NCBI GenBank assembly: GCA_021791195.1
Contig: JAJYXB010000022.1
Location: 144,245 to 208,244 of the forward strand
Direction: 5' to 3'
From: Actinomycetes bacterium
GTDB taxonomy: Bacteria > Actinomycetota > Thermoleophilia > BMS3ABIN01
DNA length: 64,000 nt
Part shown: positions 37,547 through 48,734 of the stretch, one piece after another
Numbering within the stretch: position 1 is the first letter of the stretch
Layout: every line of letters begins with the position of its first letter
Position numbers and translations under genes: made by a program
Notes under the pieces: generated by a model
What the model was told of the DNA's origin: nothing
What the model saw: only the letters and a program-made list of their open reading frames with translations
Databases searched by the model: none

Positions 37547-38710
37547 ATGGAGAACCAATGGAAGGGTAGACGCGGCAGGATCGTTCGGAAATGCTTTGTT
37601 TTTCCTGCAATAGCGGCTTTAATCCCGGTTTTCATGTTCGCGCTGATGAGTCCGGCGGCCGCCGGCGCTGTCACTTCCGCTACCACTTATCACATCAATG
37701 CCAGCGGCGGTGGCGACTGCTCCCTGATCGGAACCTGGGATGCCGCCACCGGGACATGCTCGCTGTCCACCGATGTCACGGTCACGGGCGCTGATGGCAT
37801 TCAGATCGACAGCGACCATGTGGTGCTGGACGGCAACGGCCACACACTGACCGGCAACAACAGCGGCATCACCAATGGCGTATCCTTCAACAGCAGAACC
37901 GGCGTCACGGTCAGGAACCTGACGGTGACGAAATTCTATGCCGGTATCCGTCTGTTCAGCAGCACCGGCAACGTCCTCACCGGGAATACGGCGTCGAACT
38001 GTATCTACGGGATCGACCTGGTTTCTTCCAGCGGCAATACGCTGTCAGACAACAAGGCGACCTCGAACAATAGCGGCATCTGGCTGTCGGGGAGCTCAAA
38101 TAACAGTCTGAGCGGCAATCTTGCCGGCTCCAATGCGCTCGGTGTCCACATCGGCCAGAAGTCCAATAGTAACACTGTCCGCCAGAACAACTTCCTGAGC
38201 AATACCGCCCAGATAACGGTCGACAGCTCCTGTACCGCCAATGTATTCAGCGCGGCTCCCGCCGGCGGCAACTACTGGAGCGACTGGTCTACGCCGGACG
38301 CCAACCATGACGGTTTCGTTGACAGCCCTTACCTTTTTTCCGGCGGTCGGGACGATCTGCCGCTGGCGGCGCCCGTGGGCGGTGGGCGGCCGGATCTGCA
38401 TCTGAATAATCCCGGCCCGTTCTGGGCCTCAATTGATGACTACAATGCCAGACAGCTTTCGGTAACCTGGAGTGTTGGCAACACCGGCAGCCGCGACGCC
38501 TTCCAGGCACAGCTCACCGACAGTGTCAACACCAACGGCGTCACCCTGGTCACCGCCATGCCGCAGGTGCTTGGCAGCGGCAGGATCGCTGCCGGCGGCT
38601 CCGGCTCAGTCACACTGAAATACAGCGTGCCCCAAGGGGTGAGCGCGTGGCATTCGTCCCTGACTGCCAGCGCTGAGGACGCCGTCGGCGTCAAATATGT
38701 CTATCCGTAG
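37547..38710 (+). CDS. Secreted NosD-like right-handed beta-helix protein with C-terminal WxSxDDY domain
   Basis: Signal-like N-terminus; DGIQIDSDHVVLDGNGHTLTGNNSG...GVTVRNLTVTKFYAGIRLFSSTGNVLTGNTASNCIYGIDLVSSSGNTLSDNKATSNNSGIWLSGSSNNSLSGN; C-terminus FWASIDDYNARQLSVTWSV...LKYSVPQGVSAW...YP. Confidence 0.85.
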   Translation: MENQWKGRRGRIVRKCFVFPAIAALIPVFMFALMSPAAAGAVTSATTYHINASGGGDCSLIGTWDAATGTCSLSTDVTVTGADGIQIDSDHVVLDGNGHTLTGNNSGITNGVSFNSRTGVTVRNLTVTKFYAGIRLFSSTGNVLTGNTASNCIYGIDLVSSSGNTLSDNKATSNNSGIWLSGSSNNSLSGNLAGSNALGVHIGQKSNSNTVRQNNFLSNTAQITVDSSCTANVFSAAPAGGNYWSDWSTPDANHDGFVDSPYLFSGGRDDLPLAAPVGGGRPDLHLNNPGPFWASIDDYNARQLSVTWSVGNTGSRDAFQAQLTDSVNTNGVTLVTAMPQVLGSGRIAAGGSGSVTLKYSVPQGVSAWHSSLTASAEDAVGVKYVYP

Positions 38711-40881: not shown

Positions 40882-41697
40882 ATGGGGACGCAGGTGAGGT
40901 TAAACAATCACGCACTTCTGCGCGTGGAGCTATGTGCGCTGATTTTTTTGCTCCCGGTCATGTTGTTCGGGGGTCAGCTGGCGGCTGACGCGCGGGCGGG
41001 GACTGGAGCCGGCATGCCGGCCCCGGGCGGGAGCGCTCTTTTCACGGCTGGTGGCAGCCTGGCGGTTTCCTACCTTGGACCGCTGAATCAGATCACTGTC
41101 TCCAACCCGGTGGTGACCGCCAACGCGGTTGCCGGCGCCTATGCCTTCCAGGGGGCAACGCTTCAACTCGCGGGCGTGAACCAGGATTATCCATGGGACG
41201 CCACCTTTTACTTCTTTGGCTGCTCGCTCTCCCCGGCTGGGGCGGTCAGCTGCCCCACTAGCGGACTTCCGGTCGCCCGCTATACCGCGACAGTCTCGGT
41301 GTCGGACACGAACGGCGGTATCGCCGATGCCACCGGCAATTTCGATGTCACGTGTAATGGCACGGAACCGCCGCTCGGTCTTTCGCAGACGAACGCTTAC
41401 TGGCAGACATTATCCGATTACCAAAACCGGATTCTCTCGGTTGATTTCTTCATATCGAATCCGTCGATCAACGCAGCCCATGATGTCACTGTTGTCGGCG
41501 CCCCGAGTACCAATGCGGTCATGCTTACCAATCCGCTGCCGCAGCCGGCCAGCATCCCTGCCGGCGCAGACTTCAACTTTACCCTTCGATACATAGTGCC
41601 TGCGGGCATCGCGTCATTCAATACGACCATCTACGCGACCGCGCAGGATATGTGTGGCGCCCGGTTCAGTTATCCGGCGCCGTTTCCAGGCAGTTGA
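40882..41697 (+). CDS. Secreted Ig-like protein with C-terminal WxTLSDYQxRxLSV domain
   Basis: N-terminal signal (LRVELCALIFLLPVMLFGGQLAADARA); SNPVVTANAVAG...SCPTSGLPVARYTATVSVSDTNGGIADATGNF; YWQTLSDYQNRILSVDFFISNPS...LRYIVPAGIASFNTTIYATAQD...YP. Confidence 0.83.
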   Translation: MGTQVRLNNHALLRVELCALIFLLPVMLFGGQLAADARAGTGAGMPAPGGSALFTAGGSLAVSYLGPLNQITVSNPVVTANAVAGAYAFQGATLQLAGVNQDYPWDATFYFFGCSLSPAGAVSCPTSGLPVARYTATVSVSDTNGGIADATGNFDVTCNGTEPPLGLSQTNAYWQTLSDYQNRILSVDFFISNPSINAAHDVTVVGAPSTNAVMLTNPLPQPASIPAGADFNFTLRYIVPAGIASFNTTIYATAQDMCGARFSYPAPFPGS

Positions 41698-41800
41698 CCA
41701 AAACAAAGTCGGCAAGTGGTGATCCGCGATCAAGGAGGTGAATCCGAGGGCACCGGATGGGGGTCAATTTAATCAAGCAAGCACTGAGGAGCGAAGGATA

Positions 41801-44800
41801 ATGAGGAAAATCGGTTTTTTGAGTGTGGTTATCATCCTGCTGATAGCCGCCCTTGCAGTCAATTACGCCAGCGCGGCGACACCGCTGTACGTTTCGCCGG
41901 CCGGCAGTGATACTTCCAACAACTGTCAGTCAGGCGCCACCCCTTGTGCGACCATCCAGTACGCGATTGGCCAGGCGACGGCAGGCGACACGATCGATGT
42001 GGCAGCGGGGACGTATAACGAGAACGTCACCGTTAACAAATCGCTGACGCTGACGGGCGCCGGCGCCTCCAGCACTACGATCGCCGGCGGTAGGACGGGG
42101 ACAACCCCTGTCACGGTGGCGGCCGACGGGGTCACTATTCAGGGCGTCACCGTGACCAATCCCAACGGCGCCGTCGGAATTTACTCCGCTGATCACAGCA
42201 ACTTGACCATCACCAACAACAGCATCACCGGTGTCGGCACCTCTCTCCCGAGCTGTCCGGTCGCCCCCAGCAGTTGCACCGATTCCGGTATCGAGGTGAT
42301 ATCATCGGCGGCCGCTGTTGACAGCGTCAATATCACCAACAACCAGATCAGCGCGATCTCTGGCGCAGATTACACCAGCGCCGCTGGCGTCGCCATCGGC
42401 TGGTCGGGCGGCAGTCAGAGCATCACAAAACTGGTTATTCAGGGAAACACGATAACCAACGTCAAGAGCTCCATTTTGGCCTGGCATCAAGGCCACGGCG
42501 CCTACGGCGTGCTCATCAACCATGGCACCGCCAGCCAGACTGTGGCGCCTCAGATCAAGGACAACCACATCAACAACCTGGAGGGTCTCTGGGCGCACGG
42601 CATAGGCCTGGAAGGGGACACCCCCAACGCGGTCGTGACGGGAAACACTATCGATCATCTGACTGATCATAAATCGCCTGCCGATCCCGATGCCGCCGGC
42701 GTTGAGGTGGAGACCAATCCTTCCGCCAGTACTTTGACAATCAGTGGCAACAGCTTCACCAACATGTGGTGGGGCGTGCGCAATGCCACTGCTCTACCGG
42801 TTAACGCGGCGGGCAATTACTGGGGAGATAACGATCCCAGCAATAACGTGGGCAGCCCCGGTGGCGGCCTCATCGATTATTCGCCCTGGTGGGAGGCGAA
42901 CTATGTAGGAGATCCGCACACGTCTCTCTGGCTCTGGGGCACCAACGACTCCATCCAGGATGCGGTTAACGCGGCGGCCGCCGGCGACACTATCAATGTG
43001 GCGGCGGGCACGTACACTGAGCAGATCGCGGCCGTCGGCAAGGACAACCTGACGATCAATGGTGCTGGCGTAGGTAGCACCACCATCCAGTCGCCGGCGA
43101 CGCTGGCCACGCAGTTTAAGGTCGGCAGCGTCGACCGAAAGCCGGTCGTTTTTGTGACCGGCTCTACGGGAGACGTCATCCAGAACCTGACCGTCGATGG
43201 CCTGGGTCTGGGCGGCTCCAATGTCAGCTTCTCGGGCATCGCCTTCCACAATGCAGGCGGCACCGTCCAGAACACCTCCATCGTCAACGTCGCGCCCACA
43301 CCGCTGGATGGTAACGGCAACGGCGTCGGGCTCTACGTCTACAACGATGACGGGACTGCGCGCACGGTGAACGTGAGCAACAATACCATCAACGCCTACG
43401 GGAAGAACGGTATGGCGCTCAGCGGCAACGGCCTGACCGCGAATGTGACCGGCAATACCGTGACTGGCGCCGGGCCTACCAGCGTCATCGCCCAGAACGG
43501 CATCCAGATGAGCTACGGTGCCTCCGGCACCGTCGCGAACAATACCGTGTCCGGCAACTTCGATACGGACATTACTTACGCTGCCACCAACAACGATCCC
43601 GCATCCGATCCGGATGCCGACGGGGCGGCCGGCGTACTGCTCTACAACGCCAACAATGCCACGGTGTCGAATAACACCATCACCGGCAACCAGTTCGGCG
43701 TCTGGAGCGTTGCCTCAGCCAGCCTGTCAATCCAGAATAACGCCATTACCGGCGCCGCCCATAACGGCAACGGCTTCCCGACCGGTATCGCCATCTGGAC
43801 AAACGACCAGTGGGGTTCGTACTTTAGTGTTCCTGCTGGCGGAGTTGCGACCGCGGGTTCCATCAACGGAAATACGCTGTCTACCCTCGATTACGGTCTG
43901 CTCGTCCGGCAGTACGATGCGGGCGGCGCGACGTCAAGCGTCGTGGCGCATTCCAATAGCATCGCCGCCGGTTCGCTAGACGGCGCGTTCAGTAACTCCG
44001 CCTTCGACGCCCGAGGCAACTGGTGGGGCGACGCCAGCGGGCCATCCGGCGTTGGCACCGGCACCGGTGTCCCGGTTAGTGCGAATGTGAATTACACGCC
44101 CTGGCTCGGCTCGGCCGATCTCACCGCACCGGCGGTCGCCTACGTCGCGCCCACCGGCACGATCAACGTCGGCAATCCGACGGTGACGGCAACCGCGGTC
44201 GCGGGCGCGTCGTCCAGCCTGAGCGCGAAGATGCAGCTGGCCGGCCCTAATCCGGGCAATAGCTGGGGAGCTTACAACACGTATATCATCAGCTGTACGG
44301 TTGACAACAGCGGCAATATCAGCTGCCCCACCTCCGGACTCGCTTCTCCGCTGGTCCCCGGCAACTATACGGCGACGGTGACGGTCGCGGATGGCAATAG
44401 CAAGATGGCCGATTCGACCGGCAACTTCACCATCGTCGACAACACGCCTCCGGTGACCACGGACAACGCTCCGGCCACCTGGCAGAACCATGATGTGACG
44501 GTGACGCTCAGCTGCACCGATGACATCACCGGTTGCGCCTCGACCACCTATGCGGTGGACGGCGGCACTCCCCAGACCGGCAATTCGGTTACGATCAGCG
44601 CTGAAGGCAGCCATACGATCACGTACCACTCGGTCGACAACGCCGGCAACGTCGAAAGCGACAAGACGGCCACGGTGAAGATCGACAAGACCAATCCGAC
44701 GATCAGTGCCAGCGCCACAACAACCAACGGCACATACACCGCCGGTACCTGGACCAACCAGTCCGTGACGGTGCACTTCACGTGCTCCGATTCCGGCTCC

Positions 44801-45547
44801 GGTATCGCCAGCTGTCCGGCTGATGTCGTCTACAGCAGCGACGGTGTCACCGCCACCACCAGCGGCACGGCCACCGACAAAGCTGGCAACAGCGCCAGCG
44901 CCAGCTTCGGCTCGGTCAACATCGACAAGACCGCGCCGGTCGTGGCGATCACCTCGCCGACGCCTCTGTACGTACCTGCCATTACCGGCATGGTGAGCGA
45001 CGCGGCTACTTCCAGCGGTTCGCTGGTGGCCACCATGAGCATCGATGGCGCCGCGGCGACGTCGTGTTCGATCTCGGCGGGCGGCAACATCGACTGCCCG
45101 ATCGGTCCGGGTGTAAGCAACGGCAGCCGCAGCGTCACCATCTCGGTGACTGACGGCGCCGGCAATACGGGCACGACGGCTCCGAGCACGATCGACTACG
45201 AAGCTCATGGCCAGCCCAGCCTGGGCGTCTCGGTGACGCGCGTCTACTGGGCCAGCTACAGCGACTACACCGCTGACCGCCTGAGTGTGGACTACAAGCT
45301 GACTAACGGCTCGACCGGCATCACCGCGGTCAATGTGCAGATCGTCGGCACCCACAGCACGAATGGTGTCATGCTGTCGACGGGCACGCCGGTCGTCGTG
45401 GGCGACATCCTGGCAGGAGCCGGTCAGAGCTTCACGCTCCAGTACCTGGTCCCGTCGGGCACGTCCCAGTTCGTGACCAGCCTGTACGCGACCGCTCAGG
45501 ATCCGACCGGCACGAGTTACAGCTACCCGGGTCCGTATACACCATAA
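41801..45547 (+). CDS. Large secreted protein: parallel beta-helix repeats, Ig-like domains, C-terminal YWASYSDYxxxRLSV domain
   Basis: MRKIGFLSVVIILLIAALAVNYASAATPLYVSPAGSDTSNNCQSGATPCATIQYAIGQATAGDTIDVAAGTYNENVTVNKSLTLTGAG...; RBS gaaggata at 41793. Confidence 0.9.
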   Translation: MRKIGFLSVVIILLIAALAVNYASAATPLYVSPAGSDTSNNCQSGATPCATIQYAIGQATAGDTIDVAAGTYNENVTVNKSLTLTGAGASSTTIAGGRTGTTPVTVAADGVTIQGVTVTNPNGAVGIYSADHSNLTITNNSITGVGTSLPSCPVAPSSCTDSGIEVISSAAAVDSVNITNNQISAISGADYTSAAGVAIGWSGGSQSITKLVIQGNTITNVKSSILAWHQGHGAYGVLINHGTASQTVAPQIKDNHINNLEGLWAHGIGLEGDTPNAVVTGNTIDHLTDHKSPADPDAAGVEVETNPSASTLTISGNSFTNMWWGVRNATALPVNAAGNYWGDNDPSNNVGSPGGGLIDYSPWWEANYVGDPHTSLWLWGTNDSIQDAVNAAAAGDTINVAAGTYTEQIAAVGKDNLTINGAGVGSTTIQSPATLATQFKVGSVDRKPVVFVTGSTGDVIQNLTVDGLGLGGSNVSFSGIAFHNAGGTVQNTSIVNVAPTPLDGNGNGVGLYVYNDDGTARTVNVSNNTINAYGKNGMALSGNGLTANVTGNTVTGAGPTSVIAQNGIQMSYGASGTVANNTVSGNFDTDITYAATNNDPASDPDADGAAGVLLYNANNATVSNNTITGNQFGVWSVASASLSIQNNAITGAAHNGNGFPTGIAIWTNDQWGSYFSVPAGGVATAGSINGNTLSTLDYGLLVRQYDAGGATSSVVAHSNSIAAGSLDGAFSNSAFDARGNWWGDASGPSGVGTGTGVPVSANVNYTPWLGSADLTAPAVAYVAPTGTINVGNPTVTATAVAGASSSLSAKMQLAGPNPGNSWGAYNTYIISCTVDNSGNISCPTSGLASPLVPGNYTATVTVADGNSKMADSTGNFTIVDNTPPVTTDNAPATWQNHDVTVTLSCTDDITGCASTTYAVDGGTPQTGNSVTISAEGSHTITYHSVDNAGNVESDKTATVKIDKTNPTISASATTTNGTYTAGTWTNQSVTVHFTCSDSGSGIASCPADVVYSSDGVTATTSGTATDKAGNSASASFGSVNIDKTAPVVAITSPTPLYVPAITGMVSDAATSSGSLVATMSIDGAAATSCSISAGGNIDCPIGPGVSNGSRSVTISVTDGAGNTGTTAPSTIDYEAHGQPSLGVSVTRVYWASYSDYTADRLSVDYKLTNGSTGITAVNVQIVGTHSTNGVMLSTGTPVVVGDILAGAGQSFTLQYLVPSGTSQFVTSLYATAQDPTGTSYSYPGPYTP

Positions 45548-45587
45548 GCAGGTCGAGTCAGCAAAGCTGATTCAGGATCACGGCAAG

Positions 45588-45618
45588 TGGGGCGGGTCCA
45601 CAAGGATCCGCCCCACAC
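45588..45618 (+). terminator. Terminator-like hairpin after the large beta-helix gene
   Basis: gtggggcgggtcc-acaa-ggatccgccccac; 13-bp stem but no T-run. Confidence 0.45.
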
Positions 45619-45685: not shown

Positions 45686-45713
45686 TTGACAAATTCTTTA
45701 ATTTGACTATCGT
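45686..45713 (+). promoter_or_regulatory. Putative promoter upstream of the 42-aa peptide gene
   Basis: TTGACA - 16 nt - TATCGT; start codon 30 nt downstream with AAAGGAGG RBS. Confidence 0.5.
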
Positions 45714-45743
45714 TATGGAACGAACTGAATAAAGGAGGAGCTC

Positions 45744-45872
45744 ATGAATGATGAAAAGAGTCAGCCTGAGCCGTATGTCAAGCCGGAGCTGGTGAAGCAC
45801 GAGAACCTGAAGGACATCACTTTAGCGTGCGCGCGGTGGCAGTGCAGCATCAAGGTTCCGGTTTCTCCCTGA
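45744..45872 (+). CDS. Putative RiPP precursor peptide (lasso-like leader), 42 aa; not in ORF track
   Basis: MNDEKSQPEPYVKPELVKHENLKDITLACARWQCSIKVPVSP; consensus RBS AAAGGAGGagctcATG; leader fits Y-x2-P-x-L-x9-T spacing. Confidence 0.7.
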   Translation: MNDEKSQPEPYVKPELVKHENLKDITLACARWQCSIKVPVSP

Positions 45873-45911: not shown

Positions 45912-48734
45912 TTGGGGACGGGTTTGAGGGAAGGTTTACAAAAAAAGGGAGTTTTTCTCATTGTTTTGGCTGCGTTGGCTCTTCTGGCGCTGCCGGTGTT
46001 GGCGGCTGCTGTTTCGGACTGGACCACCAGCGTCGTGGTCTCCAACCCGTCCGATCAGGTCAATCCCGTCGTCAGTGGCAGTACGGTCGCCTGGCAGGAT
46101 TACCGCAACCAGAGCAGCGGCTGCCCGACCGCGGACAACTGTCTTCCCGCTGACATCTTCGCGCGCACCATGCCGGCCGGCGCGGAGCAGAAGCTGACCA
46201 GCACCCCCAACGGCCTGGATCCCGCCATCGACGGCAGCCTGGTGGTGTGGCACAACTGGAGCACCGGCAAGATCGTCATGGACGACCTCTCGACCGGCAA
46301 CCAGCAGAACGCCAGTACCGCGACCGGCACCATCCAGCAGGTCACGCCCGCTGTCAGCGGCAACAGGATTGTCTGGGTCGATTATCGCAACAGCGCCTAT
46401 TATGGCGATATCTACATGCGCGACCTGTCGCAGCCGGCCGACCAGCCGGTCAGCGTCGCCTCGACCAGCACCTCGATCCCGAATGCGAAGAAGGACAAGC
46501 GCAATCCGGCCATCGACGGCAACATCGTCGTCTGGGAAGACTGGCGCAACGCCTACGAGGATTCCGGCGGCTGGTGGCATAATCCCGATATCTATATGAA
46601 AAACCTGTCCACCGGCGTGGAGCAGCCGGTGTGCACCAACACCTCGGACCAGTACAGCCCCGCCGTTTCCGGCAACCGGATAGTCTGGCAGGATTATCGC
46701 AACGGCAAGTGGGATATCTACATGCTGGACCTCTCCACCGGCGCCGAGACGAATCTCACCAGCGGCAATCCGGACAACGCCACTTCGCCCAGCATCAGCG
46801 GGAATTTCGTCGCCTGGAAAGACAAGACCGCGGCCGGGGCCGAGAACATCGAGGTAAAGAATCTTTTGACCGGCGCAGTGACGCCGCTTACCAGCGGTAC
46901 GGCGTCGCACAAGCTGCCCTCAGCCAGCGGGTCGAATTTTGTGTGGATGGACAGCAGCGCCGGCAACTGGGACATCGCTATCGCCAACGATACGGTCCCG
47001 CCGGTCGTGTCGGCTGTTTCGCCGGCAGGTCCGCTTACCACCACGGCGGCGACGGTGTCAGCGGCATTGACCGATGGCGGCTCCGGCGTCGACGCCAGCA
47101 GCGTCGCGGTAACGCTGGACGGCGCCGCGCTGCCGGGATGCAGCGTCAGCACATCCTCGGTCAGCTGCCCCGTCTCGGGCCTGAGCCAGGGTCCGCATAG
47201 TATTGGCGTAACGGTTAAGGACCTGGTGGGCAACAGCGGCTCGGGCTTGTCGACTTTCACGGTTGACAGCCTGGCGCCGGTCATCAGCGCCGCCAGCCCG
47301 TCGGGGCTGCTGGCCAGCTTTAGCGGCATCAGCGCCGGCTACAGCGACAGCGGTTCGGGCATCGATCCCGCTTCGGCGCAGGTGACACTTGACGGCGCGG
47401 TCATTTCCGGCTGCAATGCGACCGCCAGCTCGGTTTCATGCCAGCCGGCCGGCGTGGCCGACGGTCATCACAACTACTCCATCAGTGTCATGGATATGTA
47501 CGGGAATGCCGCCGCGGGTTCGGGTTCGTTCGATCTGGACACCACGCCACCGGTGATCGACCCGGTTTCCGCTACGGTGACGCCCGGCAGCGGCAATGCC
47601 GTCATCGACGCAGGCCTGAGCGACCCGGCGCCCGGGAGCGGGATCGACACCGGCGCCGTGAGCGTCGAGCTTGACGGCGCCGCCATGGGCGGCTGCACCA
47701 TCACCAGCAGTCACGTGTCCTGCGCCGCCACCGGCCTTGCTTATGGTCCGCATGCGGTGTCTGTAAGCGCCGCTGACGTCGCCGGCAACAGCGCCGTGGC
47801 AACCGCGTCGTTCACCGTCAATGATACGGTGGCTCCCGTGGTCACGCCCGCCAGCCCGATAGGTACCGTGTCCGGCCCCACTACCACGATCACCGCCGCT
47901 TACGACGACGCAGCACCCAGCAGCGGCATCAACCAGGCCTCAGTTGCGGTCCAGCTGGACGGCAGCGCGCTGGCAGGCTGCTCCGTGTCCGCCAGCCAGG
48001 TCAGCTGCCTGACCGGGAATCTGATGGACGGCGCTCACAGCGTCCGGATCCTGGCGAGCGACAATGCCGGCAATAGAGGTGAGTCCGACTGGAGCTTTAG
48101 CGTTAAACCCGGCGCGCCGGCGCTTTCAAACCTGACGCCGCCGGCGGGAGCCACGATCAACAATGTCACGCCGCTGATATCCGCGGGTTATTTTGACGGC
48201 GGCGGCATCGATCAGGCCTCGGTCAGGATCTACGTCGACTCGGTCGATGTGACGCCGCAGGCGGCCGTGGCTGCCACTTCAGTCTCCTACCAGCCGTCGA
48301 AGAGCGCGCTGCTTCGGGACGGGAAGCACGTAGCGCGGGTGGTAGTCGCCGACATGCAGGGGAACGTCACCGATCAGAGCTGGGAGTTCACCGTGACCTC
48401 GCCGAGCATCAGCCTGACACTCGGCAACGTTTACTGGGCGAGCCTGAGCAATTACCAGGCCGGCATGCTGACGGTGAACTACAGGATAGACAATACCGGA
48501 ACATCCTTCTGCAACGCCGGGCAGGTCACGGTCGCCTACGCCTCGAATGCGGTCAGGGCATATGGCCCGCTGCCGGTGAGCCTGGGCAATCTCGCGCCTG
48601 CCGCGTCAGTCAGCTACGATTTCCTCTACCTGGTTCCGCCAGACGTCGGCCAGTTCGTCACCATGAGTTATTCCAACTGCCAGGATGATGGCGCCAATCT
48701 CTTCTGGTTCCCGGGGGCGCCGCCGACCTCCTGA
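45912..48734 (+). CDS. Large secreted protein: TolB-like beta-propeller repeats, Ig-like domains, C-terminal YWASLSNYQxxxLTV domain
   Basis: NPVVSGSTVAWQDYRN...IYMRDLSQP...NPAIDGNIVVWEDWRN...DIYMKNLSTG...SPAVSGNRIVWQDYRNGKWDIYMLDLSTG; tandem SPAGPL...VTLDGA...SCPVSGL Ig-like units. Confidence 0.88.
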   Translation: MGTGLREGLQKKGVFLIVLAALALLALPVLAAAVSDWTTSVVVSNPSDQVNPVVSGSTVAWQDYRNQSSGCPTADNCLPADIFARTMPAGAEQKLTSTPNGLDPAIDGSLVVWHNWSTGKIVMDDLSTGNQQNASTATGTIQQVTPAVSGNRIVWVDYRNSAYYGDIYMRDLSQPADQPVSVASTSTSIPNAKKDKRNPAIDGNIVVWEDWRNAYEDSGGWWHNPDIYMKNLSTGVEQPVCTNTSDQYSPAVSGNRIVWQDYRNGKWDIYMLDLSTGAETNLTSGNPDNATSPSISGNFVAWKDKTAAGAENIEVKNLLTGAVTPLTSGTASHKLPSASGSNFVWMDSSAGNWDIAIANDTVPPVVSAVSPAGPLTTTAATVSAALTDGGSGVDASSVAVTLDGAALPGCSVSTSSVSCPVSGLSQGPHSIGVTVKDLVGNSGSGLSTFTVDSLAPVISAASPSGLLASFSGISAGYSDSGSGIDPASAQVTLDGAVISGCNATASSVSCQPAGVADGHHNYSISVMDMYGNAAAGSGSFDLDTTPPVIDPVSATVTPGSGNAVIDAGLSDPAPGSGIDTGAVSVELDGAAMGGCTITSSHVSCAATGLAYGPHAVSVSAADVAGNSAVATASFTVNDTVAPVVTPASPIGTVSGPTTTITAAYDDAAPSSGINQASVAVQLDGSALAGCSVSASQVSCLTGNLMDGAHSVRILASDNAGNRGESDWSFSVKPGAPALSNLTPPAGATINNVTPLISAGYFDGGGIDQASVRIYVDSVDVTPQAAVAATSVSYQPSKSALLRDGKHVARVVVADMQGNVTDQSWEFTVTSPSISLTLGNVYWASLSNYQAGMLTVNYRIDNTGTSFCNAGQVTVAYASNAVRAYGPLPVSLGNLAPAASVSYDFLYLVPPDVGQFVTMSYSNCQDDGANLFWFPGAPPTS

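Follow-up and report, generated by a model that had tools for sequence, protein, structure and literature searches.

The window (the whole 64,000-nucleotide stretch of DNA that was analyzed) contains, on its plus strand, a gene for a 42-amino-acid RiPP-like precursor peptide, located between genes for two secreted proteins with a shared C-terminal domain (CTD). A sequence-only reading of this DNA had predicted the open reading frame (ORF) at positions 45744 to 45872, together with a ribosome-binding site and a TTGACA/TATCGT promoter. The sequence and coordinates of the peptide ORF were reproduced exactly from the window sequence, and both expression signals were recovered, the promoter being the sole TTGACA-16-TATCGT match in the 64-kb window (0.14 expected). 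Likewise, Y11, P14, L16 and T26 agreed exactly with the lasso-type leader pattern that had been proposed, with E at the usual Gly position. Pfam and NCBIfam searches gave no match to the peptide. The following features were annotated:

37547 to 38710, plus strand: fourth CTD protein, NosD-like beta-helix (CTD at 38390 to 38707)
40882 to 41697, plus strand: third CTD protein of the cluster (CTD at 41368 to 41694)
41738 to 45547, plus strand: upstream secreted beta-helix/Ig-like protein with the shared CTD, from sequence
45215 to 45544, plus strand: CTD of the upstream protein, Ig-like sandwich, from sequence and predicted structure (pLDDT 97)
~45587 to 45616, plus strand: strong hairpin between the upstream gene and the peptide gene (RNA fold z-score, -5.4), a possible terminator, although without a T-run
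45686 to 45713, plus strand: sigma-70-like promoter TTGACA-16-TATCGT, by sequence match
45731 to 45738, plus strand: ribosome-binding site AAAGGAGG, 5 nt before ATG 45744
45744 to 45872, plus strand: 42-aa RiPP-like precursor peptide MNDEKSQPEPYVKPELVKHENLKDITLACARWQCSIKVPVSP; reading frame conserved in 19/19 family genomes
45774 to 45821, plus strand: leader recognition stretch YVKPELVKHENLKDIT, Y11 to T26; Y, P, N and T invariant; register equal to that of the linear polyphosphorylated peptide (LPP) motif YxxPxVLxHQxIxFET
45825 to 45869, plus strand: predicted core ACARWQCSIKVPVSP, assuming cleavage after T-x as by a lasso B2 peptidase, on the rule that lasso leaders have Thr in the penultimate position
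45837 to 45848, plus strand: WQCS, core motif common to nearly all members; CS spacing fixed in 93/95 loosely captured ORFs
45912 to 48734, plus strand: downstream secreted beta-propeller protein, also with a CTD (48402 to 48731)

Since the strong hairpin is placed between the upstream gene and the promoter, the window copy of the peptide gene is probably transcribed on its own, apart from the upstream gene. Given its divergent core residues (LACAR...SIKVPVSP), this copy could be drifting.

The peptide belongs to a conserved multicopy family

A search of the peptide's own genome (2.15 Mb, 27 contigs) revealed 5 close copies at E ~1e-9 or better, distributed over four contigs, and at least one divergent copy of a second kind (L184, G000:C19:194752-194883). 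By class-wide profile search, several copies were detected in each of the 19 genomes of the family and in none of the 280 genomes sampled from the rest of the class, and a broader profile yielded the same distribution (0/230 other genomes). Among 98 relatives, matches were confined to members of the same family. When a name-bearing collection was queried with the alignment, these relatives proved to be Thermoleophilia/Actinobacteria metagenome-assembled genomes, such as SURF_19, BMS3Abin01, Kmv30 and DeMMO3_11. Because of the 5 own-genome copies and the presence of copies in 19/19 family genomes, conservation is far beyond chance, which is the opposite of the lack of conservation in relatives that the sequence-only reading had named as speaking against a real peptide. 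Literature searches turned up no report of this peptide family in Thermoleophilia. Many contigs terminate at most a few dozen bases from a precursor gene (G009:C42, G014:C46, G002:C10, G008:C34, G002:C27 and others), as if near-identical repeats around the precursors had broken the assemblies.

In an alignment of 18 copies, Y11, P14, L16, N21, L22, T26, C29, W32, C34, S35, V38 and P39 were invariant. A more sensitive search uncovered the second kind (type 2), in which the leader has the classical lasso Gly (YxxPxLxxxGNIxxIT) and the WxCS core is followed by an acidic, His-rich or Gly-rich tail. Residues common to both kinds are Y, P, N, T, C and S, and the family-wide invariants are a YxxPx[L]...N...T leader and a WxCS core, followed by a variable tail. 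The two-Cys core emphasized in the sequence-only reading was thus not borne out as a family feature: C29 is missing from type-2 peptides, for which reason it was dropped as a universal modified residue, whereas WxCS is universal. When ORFs were captured by their leader only, 93 of the 95 had CS at the same spacing; one exception was a chance ORF, and the other was a member with WQCS and a shorter spacer. One leader-only copy without a WxCS core (L194, G001:C12:41163-41234) ends in TREDGQMVL.

After removal of residues fixed by the capture pattern, pN/pS was 0.38 to 0.69; earlier values of 0.20 to 0.32 were biased low, as the regular expression itself fixed residues. Being below 1, these values suggest constraint on the coding sequence, although weaker than first estimated.

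Precursor genes usually follow genes for secreted CTD proteins

Of 65 informative copies, 54 were located directly behind, and on the same strand as, a gene for a secreted CTD protein, whose stop codon lay 37 to 229 nt (median, 82 nt) upstream of the Tyr codon; the longest of these gaps, 229 nt, is that of the window copy. The secreted protein 40 nt downstream of the peptide gene, to which the sequence-only reading had pointed as a partner, was consequently abandoned as the usual one in favor of the upstream CTD protein. The bodies of the partner proteins vary (beta-helix, beta-propeller, rhodanese and glycosidase-like), and what they share is the CTD of ~105 residues. The 19 family genomes encode 11 to 39 CTDs each (17 in the own genome), and outside the family the domain is essentially absent from the class, with one marginal match in 41; CTD and precursors have an equal phylogenetic range. 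AlphaFold2 predicted the CTD to be an Ig-like sandwich (pLDDT 97); adaptin (including gamma-adaptin ear) and COPI appendage domains are among the nearest solved folds, at weak E-values.

Most copies that lack an upstream CTD gene seem to form a single group of orthologues (start GGVGMK), which in the own genome and in G010 has heme-synthesis-like genes as neighbors. At two loci (L202:472-1410 and L203:487-1431), the precursor is flanked by a Tat-signal-like gene and a gene encoding a CTD protein whose CxxCH may be of the heme type, a hint of surface redox proteins.

Candidate maturation enzymes are encoded in trans

As the sequence-only reading had stated, no RRE or Asn-synthetase gene lies in the window, nor does a B2 gene, and the own-genome matches are all on other contigs. 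That reading had also held that a genome devoid of any RRE would speak against its proposal; a single PqqD-like lasso-type RRE above cut-off was found in the own genome (G000:C17:42344-42541). RREs of the family matched best to the lasso PqqD model NF033536 (64 bits) and to the lasso RREs TbiB1, PbaB1, TfuB1 and LppB in the PDB. In published structures, N33 and D70 of LppB position the leader around Tyr and Pro, and the Trp-selective PbaB1 uses Gln79. Asn and Asp are aligned at the N33 and D70 positions in the family RREs, a pattern that fits the invariant leader Tyr.

A B2 leader peptidase gene (G000:C17:42624-42998) adjoins the RRE gene; its product scored 36.9 with NF033537 (cut-off, 33), and Cys and His are invariant in nine copies examined in relatives. 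The RRE gene is preceded by a gene for an HprK-like kinase, K1 (C17:41121-42278), and a PF14907 nucleotidyltransferase (C17:58490-59245) is encoded on the same contig, ~16 kb from the RRE. This arrangement recurs across the family; however, B2 was not found in G005, and PF14907 was not found in every family genome. A SipW-like peptidase of the LPP type was not detected in the own genome.

A second HprK-like kinase, K2, was found in 15 genomes, and in 14 of them its gene is 0.8 to 2.2 kb downstream of a precursor; both K1 and K2 have an intact GxxGxGKS...GDD. The proximity of K2 provides a connection between the peptides and RiPP-type kinases that does not depend on the leader motif. In the own genome, RRE and B2 are not adjacent to precursors, and their pairing with the peptides is based on the leader match, co-occurrence and K2 linkage. 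The sequence-only reading had suggested an orphan precursor acting with distant enzymes. The second half of this description holds, since RRE, B2 and two HprK-like kinases are found on other contigs and conserved in the family, with K2 linked to precursors; the first half does not, as the peptide is one of many copies.

In the loci examined, a lipoprotein gene separates the precursor from K2. At L037:9564-10121, L034:8399-8980 and relatives, the C terminus of the lipoprotein, W..(GG)IxIxVPxxP, is similar to the VxVPPPP tail of type-1 peptides.

Comparison with known systems

Among known systems, the Thermoleophilia peptide most resembles LPP, reported from Bacillota in a 2026 study, in which an RRE, an HprK-like kinase, a SipW-like peptidase and an NTP transferase accompany the precursors (PMC13381572). 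LPP precursors (YxxPxVLxHQxIxFETxxS), whose leader was experimentally validated, are phosphorylated on Ser3 and cleaved after Thr (PMC13381572). The leader register is the same in both, with Y, P, H, I/L and T at identical spacing, and both systems have a discrete Tyr-type RRE, an HprK-like kinase (intact Walker A, DD), a PF14907-type NTP transferase, a variable core and no cyclase. In contrast to LPP, the own genome encodes a B2 transglutaminase-fold peptidase instead of the SipW-like SpI, and Cys29 (in type-1 members) takes the place of the phospho-acceptor Ser3. Because these two defining features of LPP fail, we set the peptide apart as a variant rather than a member. Further differences are the invariant WxCS, the many dispersed precursors paired with CTD proteins, the location of the enzymes in trans, and the presence in every genome of one actinobacterial family, whereas LPP is patchy.

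Phosphorylated lasso peptides (paeninodin and Bsf; PMC10368454) likewise have a YxxPxL leader with a penultimate Thr (Ile in Bsf), B1, B2, an HprK-like kinase and a nucleotidyltransferase, but the family studied here differs from them in its core, in the absence of an associated cyclase and in having no Asp/Glu acceptor at core positions 7 to 9. The SynChlorMet cassette/HprK_rel_A system (TIGR04249, TIGR04352) shares an HprK-like protein with a PqqD-like partner; scores here were far under the cut-offs (35 of 125 and 65 of 200 bits), and unlike in SynChlorMet, no paired ScmE/ScmF arrangement is present at the RRE of the own genome.

Proposed maturation and role

With conservation, gene pairing, and the presence and linkage of the enzymes observed, we consider it probable (roughly 0.8) that the peptide is the precursor of a linear, kinase-modified, probably phosphorylated RiPP that is matured in trans and linked to surface proteins. 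RRE binding, cleavage, phosphorylation, export and the role of the peptide are inferred steps. The only lasso-type RRE protein of the genome (G000:C17) would bind the leader (YxxPxL...T) and present it both to an HprK-like kinase and to B2, the cysteine leader peptidase. B2 would cut just after T26-L27, releasing a linear core with the fixed WxCS, and no lasso ring would be formed. The kinase would most likely phosphorylate the invariant Ser35, as this is the only hydroxyl residue fixed in the cores, and less likely an invariant Cys; the PF14907 nucleotidyltransferase may then elaborate the phosphate. Several scattered precursor genes would share this one machinery in trans. The linear product would be exported and, in view of the usual position of each precursor gene immediately after one for a secreted CTD protein, its most likely site of action is extracellular, together with the CTD proteins. 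Family knowledge and linkage underlie the first part of this route, and one line of evidence, the gene pairing, the last.

Such a system would extend the cyclase-less, kinase-modified branch of lasso-type RiPPs, so far found in Bacillota, to an actinobacterial lineage, in which it is kept in every genome, has many dispersed copies and is wired to secreted proteins. The pairing with CTD genes offers a concrete, testable partner for such peptides. The family also illustrates that 40-residue ORFs missed by gene callers can belong to a large conserved system.

It is possible, although rather doubtful, that the peptide is part of a surface-display system, in which the modified product is the ligand or anchor holding diverse secreted CTD proteins on the cell and one shared RRE-kinase-peptidase set matures the peptides from all of the many CTD-protein loci that encode them. 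The peptide would perhaps be phospho-linked to a cell-surface glycan via the nucleotidyltransferase and glycosyltransferases; if true, a RiPP would here function as a device for protein sorting.

Alternative explanations

Alternatively, the CTD proteins might use a co-opted leader-like peptide as a small ligand, chaperone or assembly factor, to which the RRE binds but which stays unmodified. Although the tight pairing with CTD genes (54/65), the equal phylogenetic range and the nearness of the CTD to gamma-adaptin ear domains (weak E-values), which bind short peptides, would agree with such a role, it appears improbable, because K2, with intact catalytic motifs, is fixed beside a precursor (14/15 genomes), and the penultimate Thr that goes with B2 cleavage has been retained in the leader.

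The lasso features that are present are the YxxPxL leader with penultimate Thr and, encoded in trans, a discrete RRE (B1) and a B2 peptidase. As judged from sequence, the peptide is nevertheless not a lasso peptide, because no lasso cyclase accompanies it and its core contains no Asp/Glu acceptor. In members with regular spacing, core positions 7 to 9 are Cys-Ser-nonacidic; the prediction of the sequence-only reading that a classical lasso ring is not expected was extended in this way to all regularly spaced true members. No macrolactam cyclase is encoded with the cluster, and AsnB homologues, encoded elsewhere only, reach about half of the lasso-cyclase cut-off (256 versus 525 bits with NF033535). 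Cyclization in trans by such an Asn-synthetase homologue is more improbable still: in a family-conserved homologue (L169:7577-9538), Ser replaces the glutaminase Cys (VSGIAG), but the two full-length AsnB homologues are encoded on a different contig, surrounded by radical-SAM-like and glycan-type genes, match best to TIGR03108/TIGR01536, and would find no canonical acceptor in any regular member. Genes for a normal AsnB and for possible B12-type radical SAM proteins are close to that of the Ser-for-Cys homologue (L169:7577-9538, L170:5723-7618).

A radical-SAM RiPP with a Cys/Trp cross-link in C29-W32-C34 is very unlikely, for even though PqqD adjoins a radical SAM/SPASM gene, an HprK-like gene and a SipW-like peptidase gene in some relatives (L108, L111), with a precursor also present on some contigs of this sort (L104/L105, L107), the single PqqD of the own genome is not beside a radical SAM gene of that type, the one 7 kb away is among glycosyltransferases and was not seen there in several relatives, and C29 is not conserved in type-2 peptides. 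Radical SAM pairs matching TIGR04251 near one precursor locus (L112, L113) were rejected as candidates, as they are near hemA/hemC-like genes and fit heme-synthesis radical SAMs. Second loci in relatives (L107 to L111) combine a CTD protein with varying sets of HprK-like, PqqD, radical SAM/SPASM and SipW-like peptidase genes.
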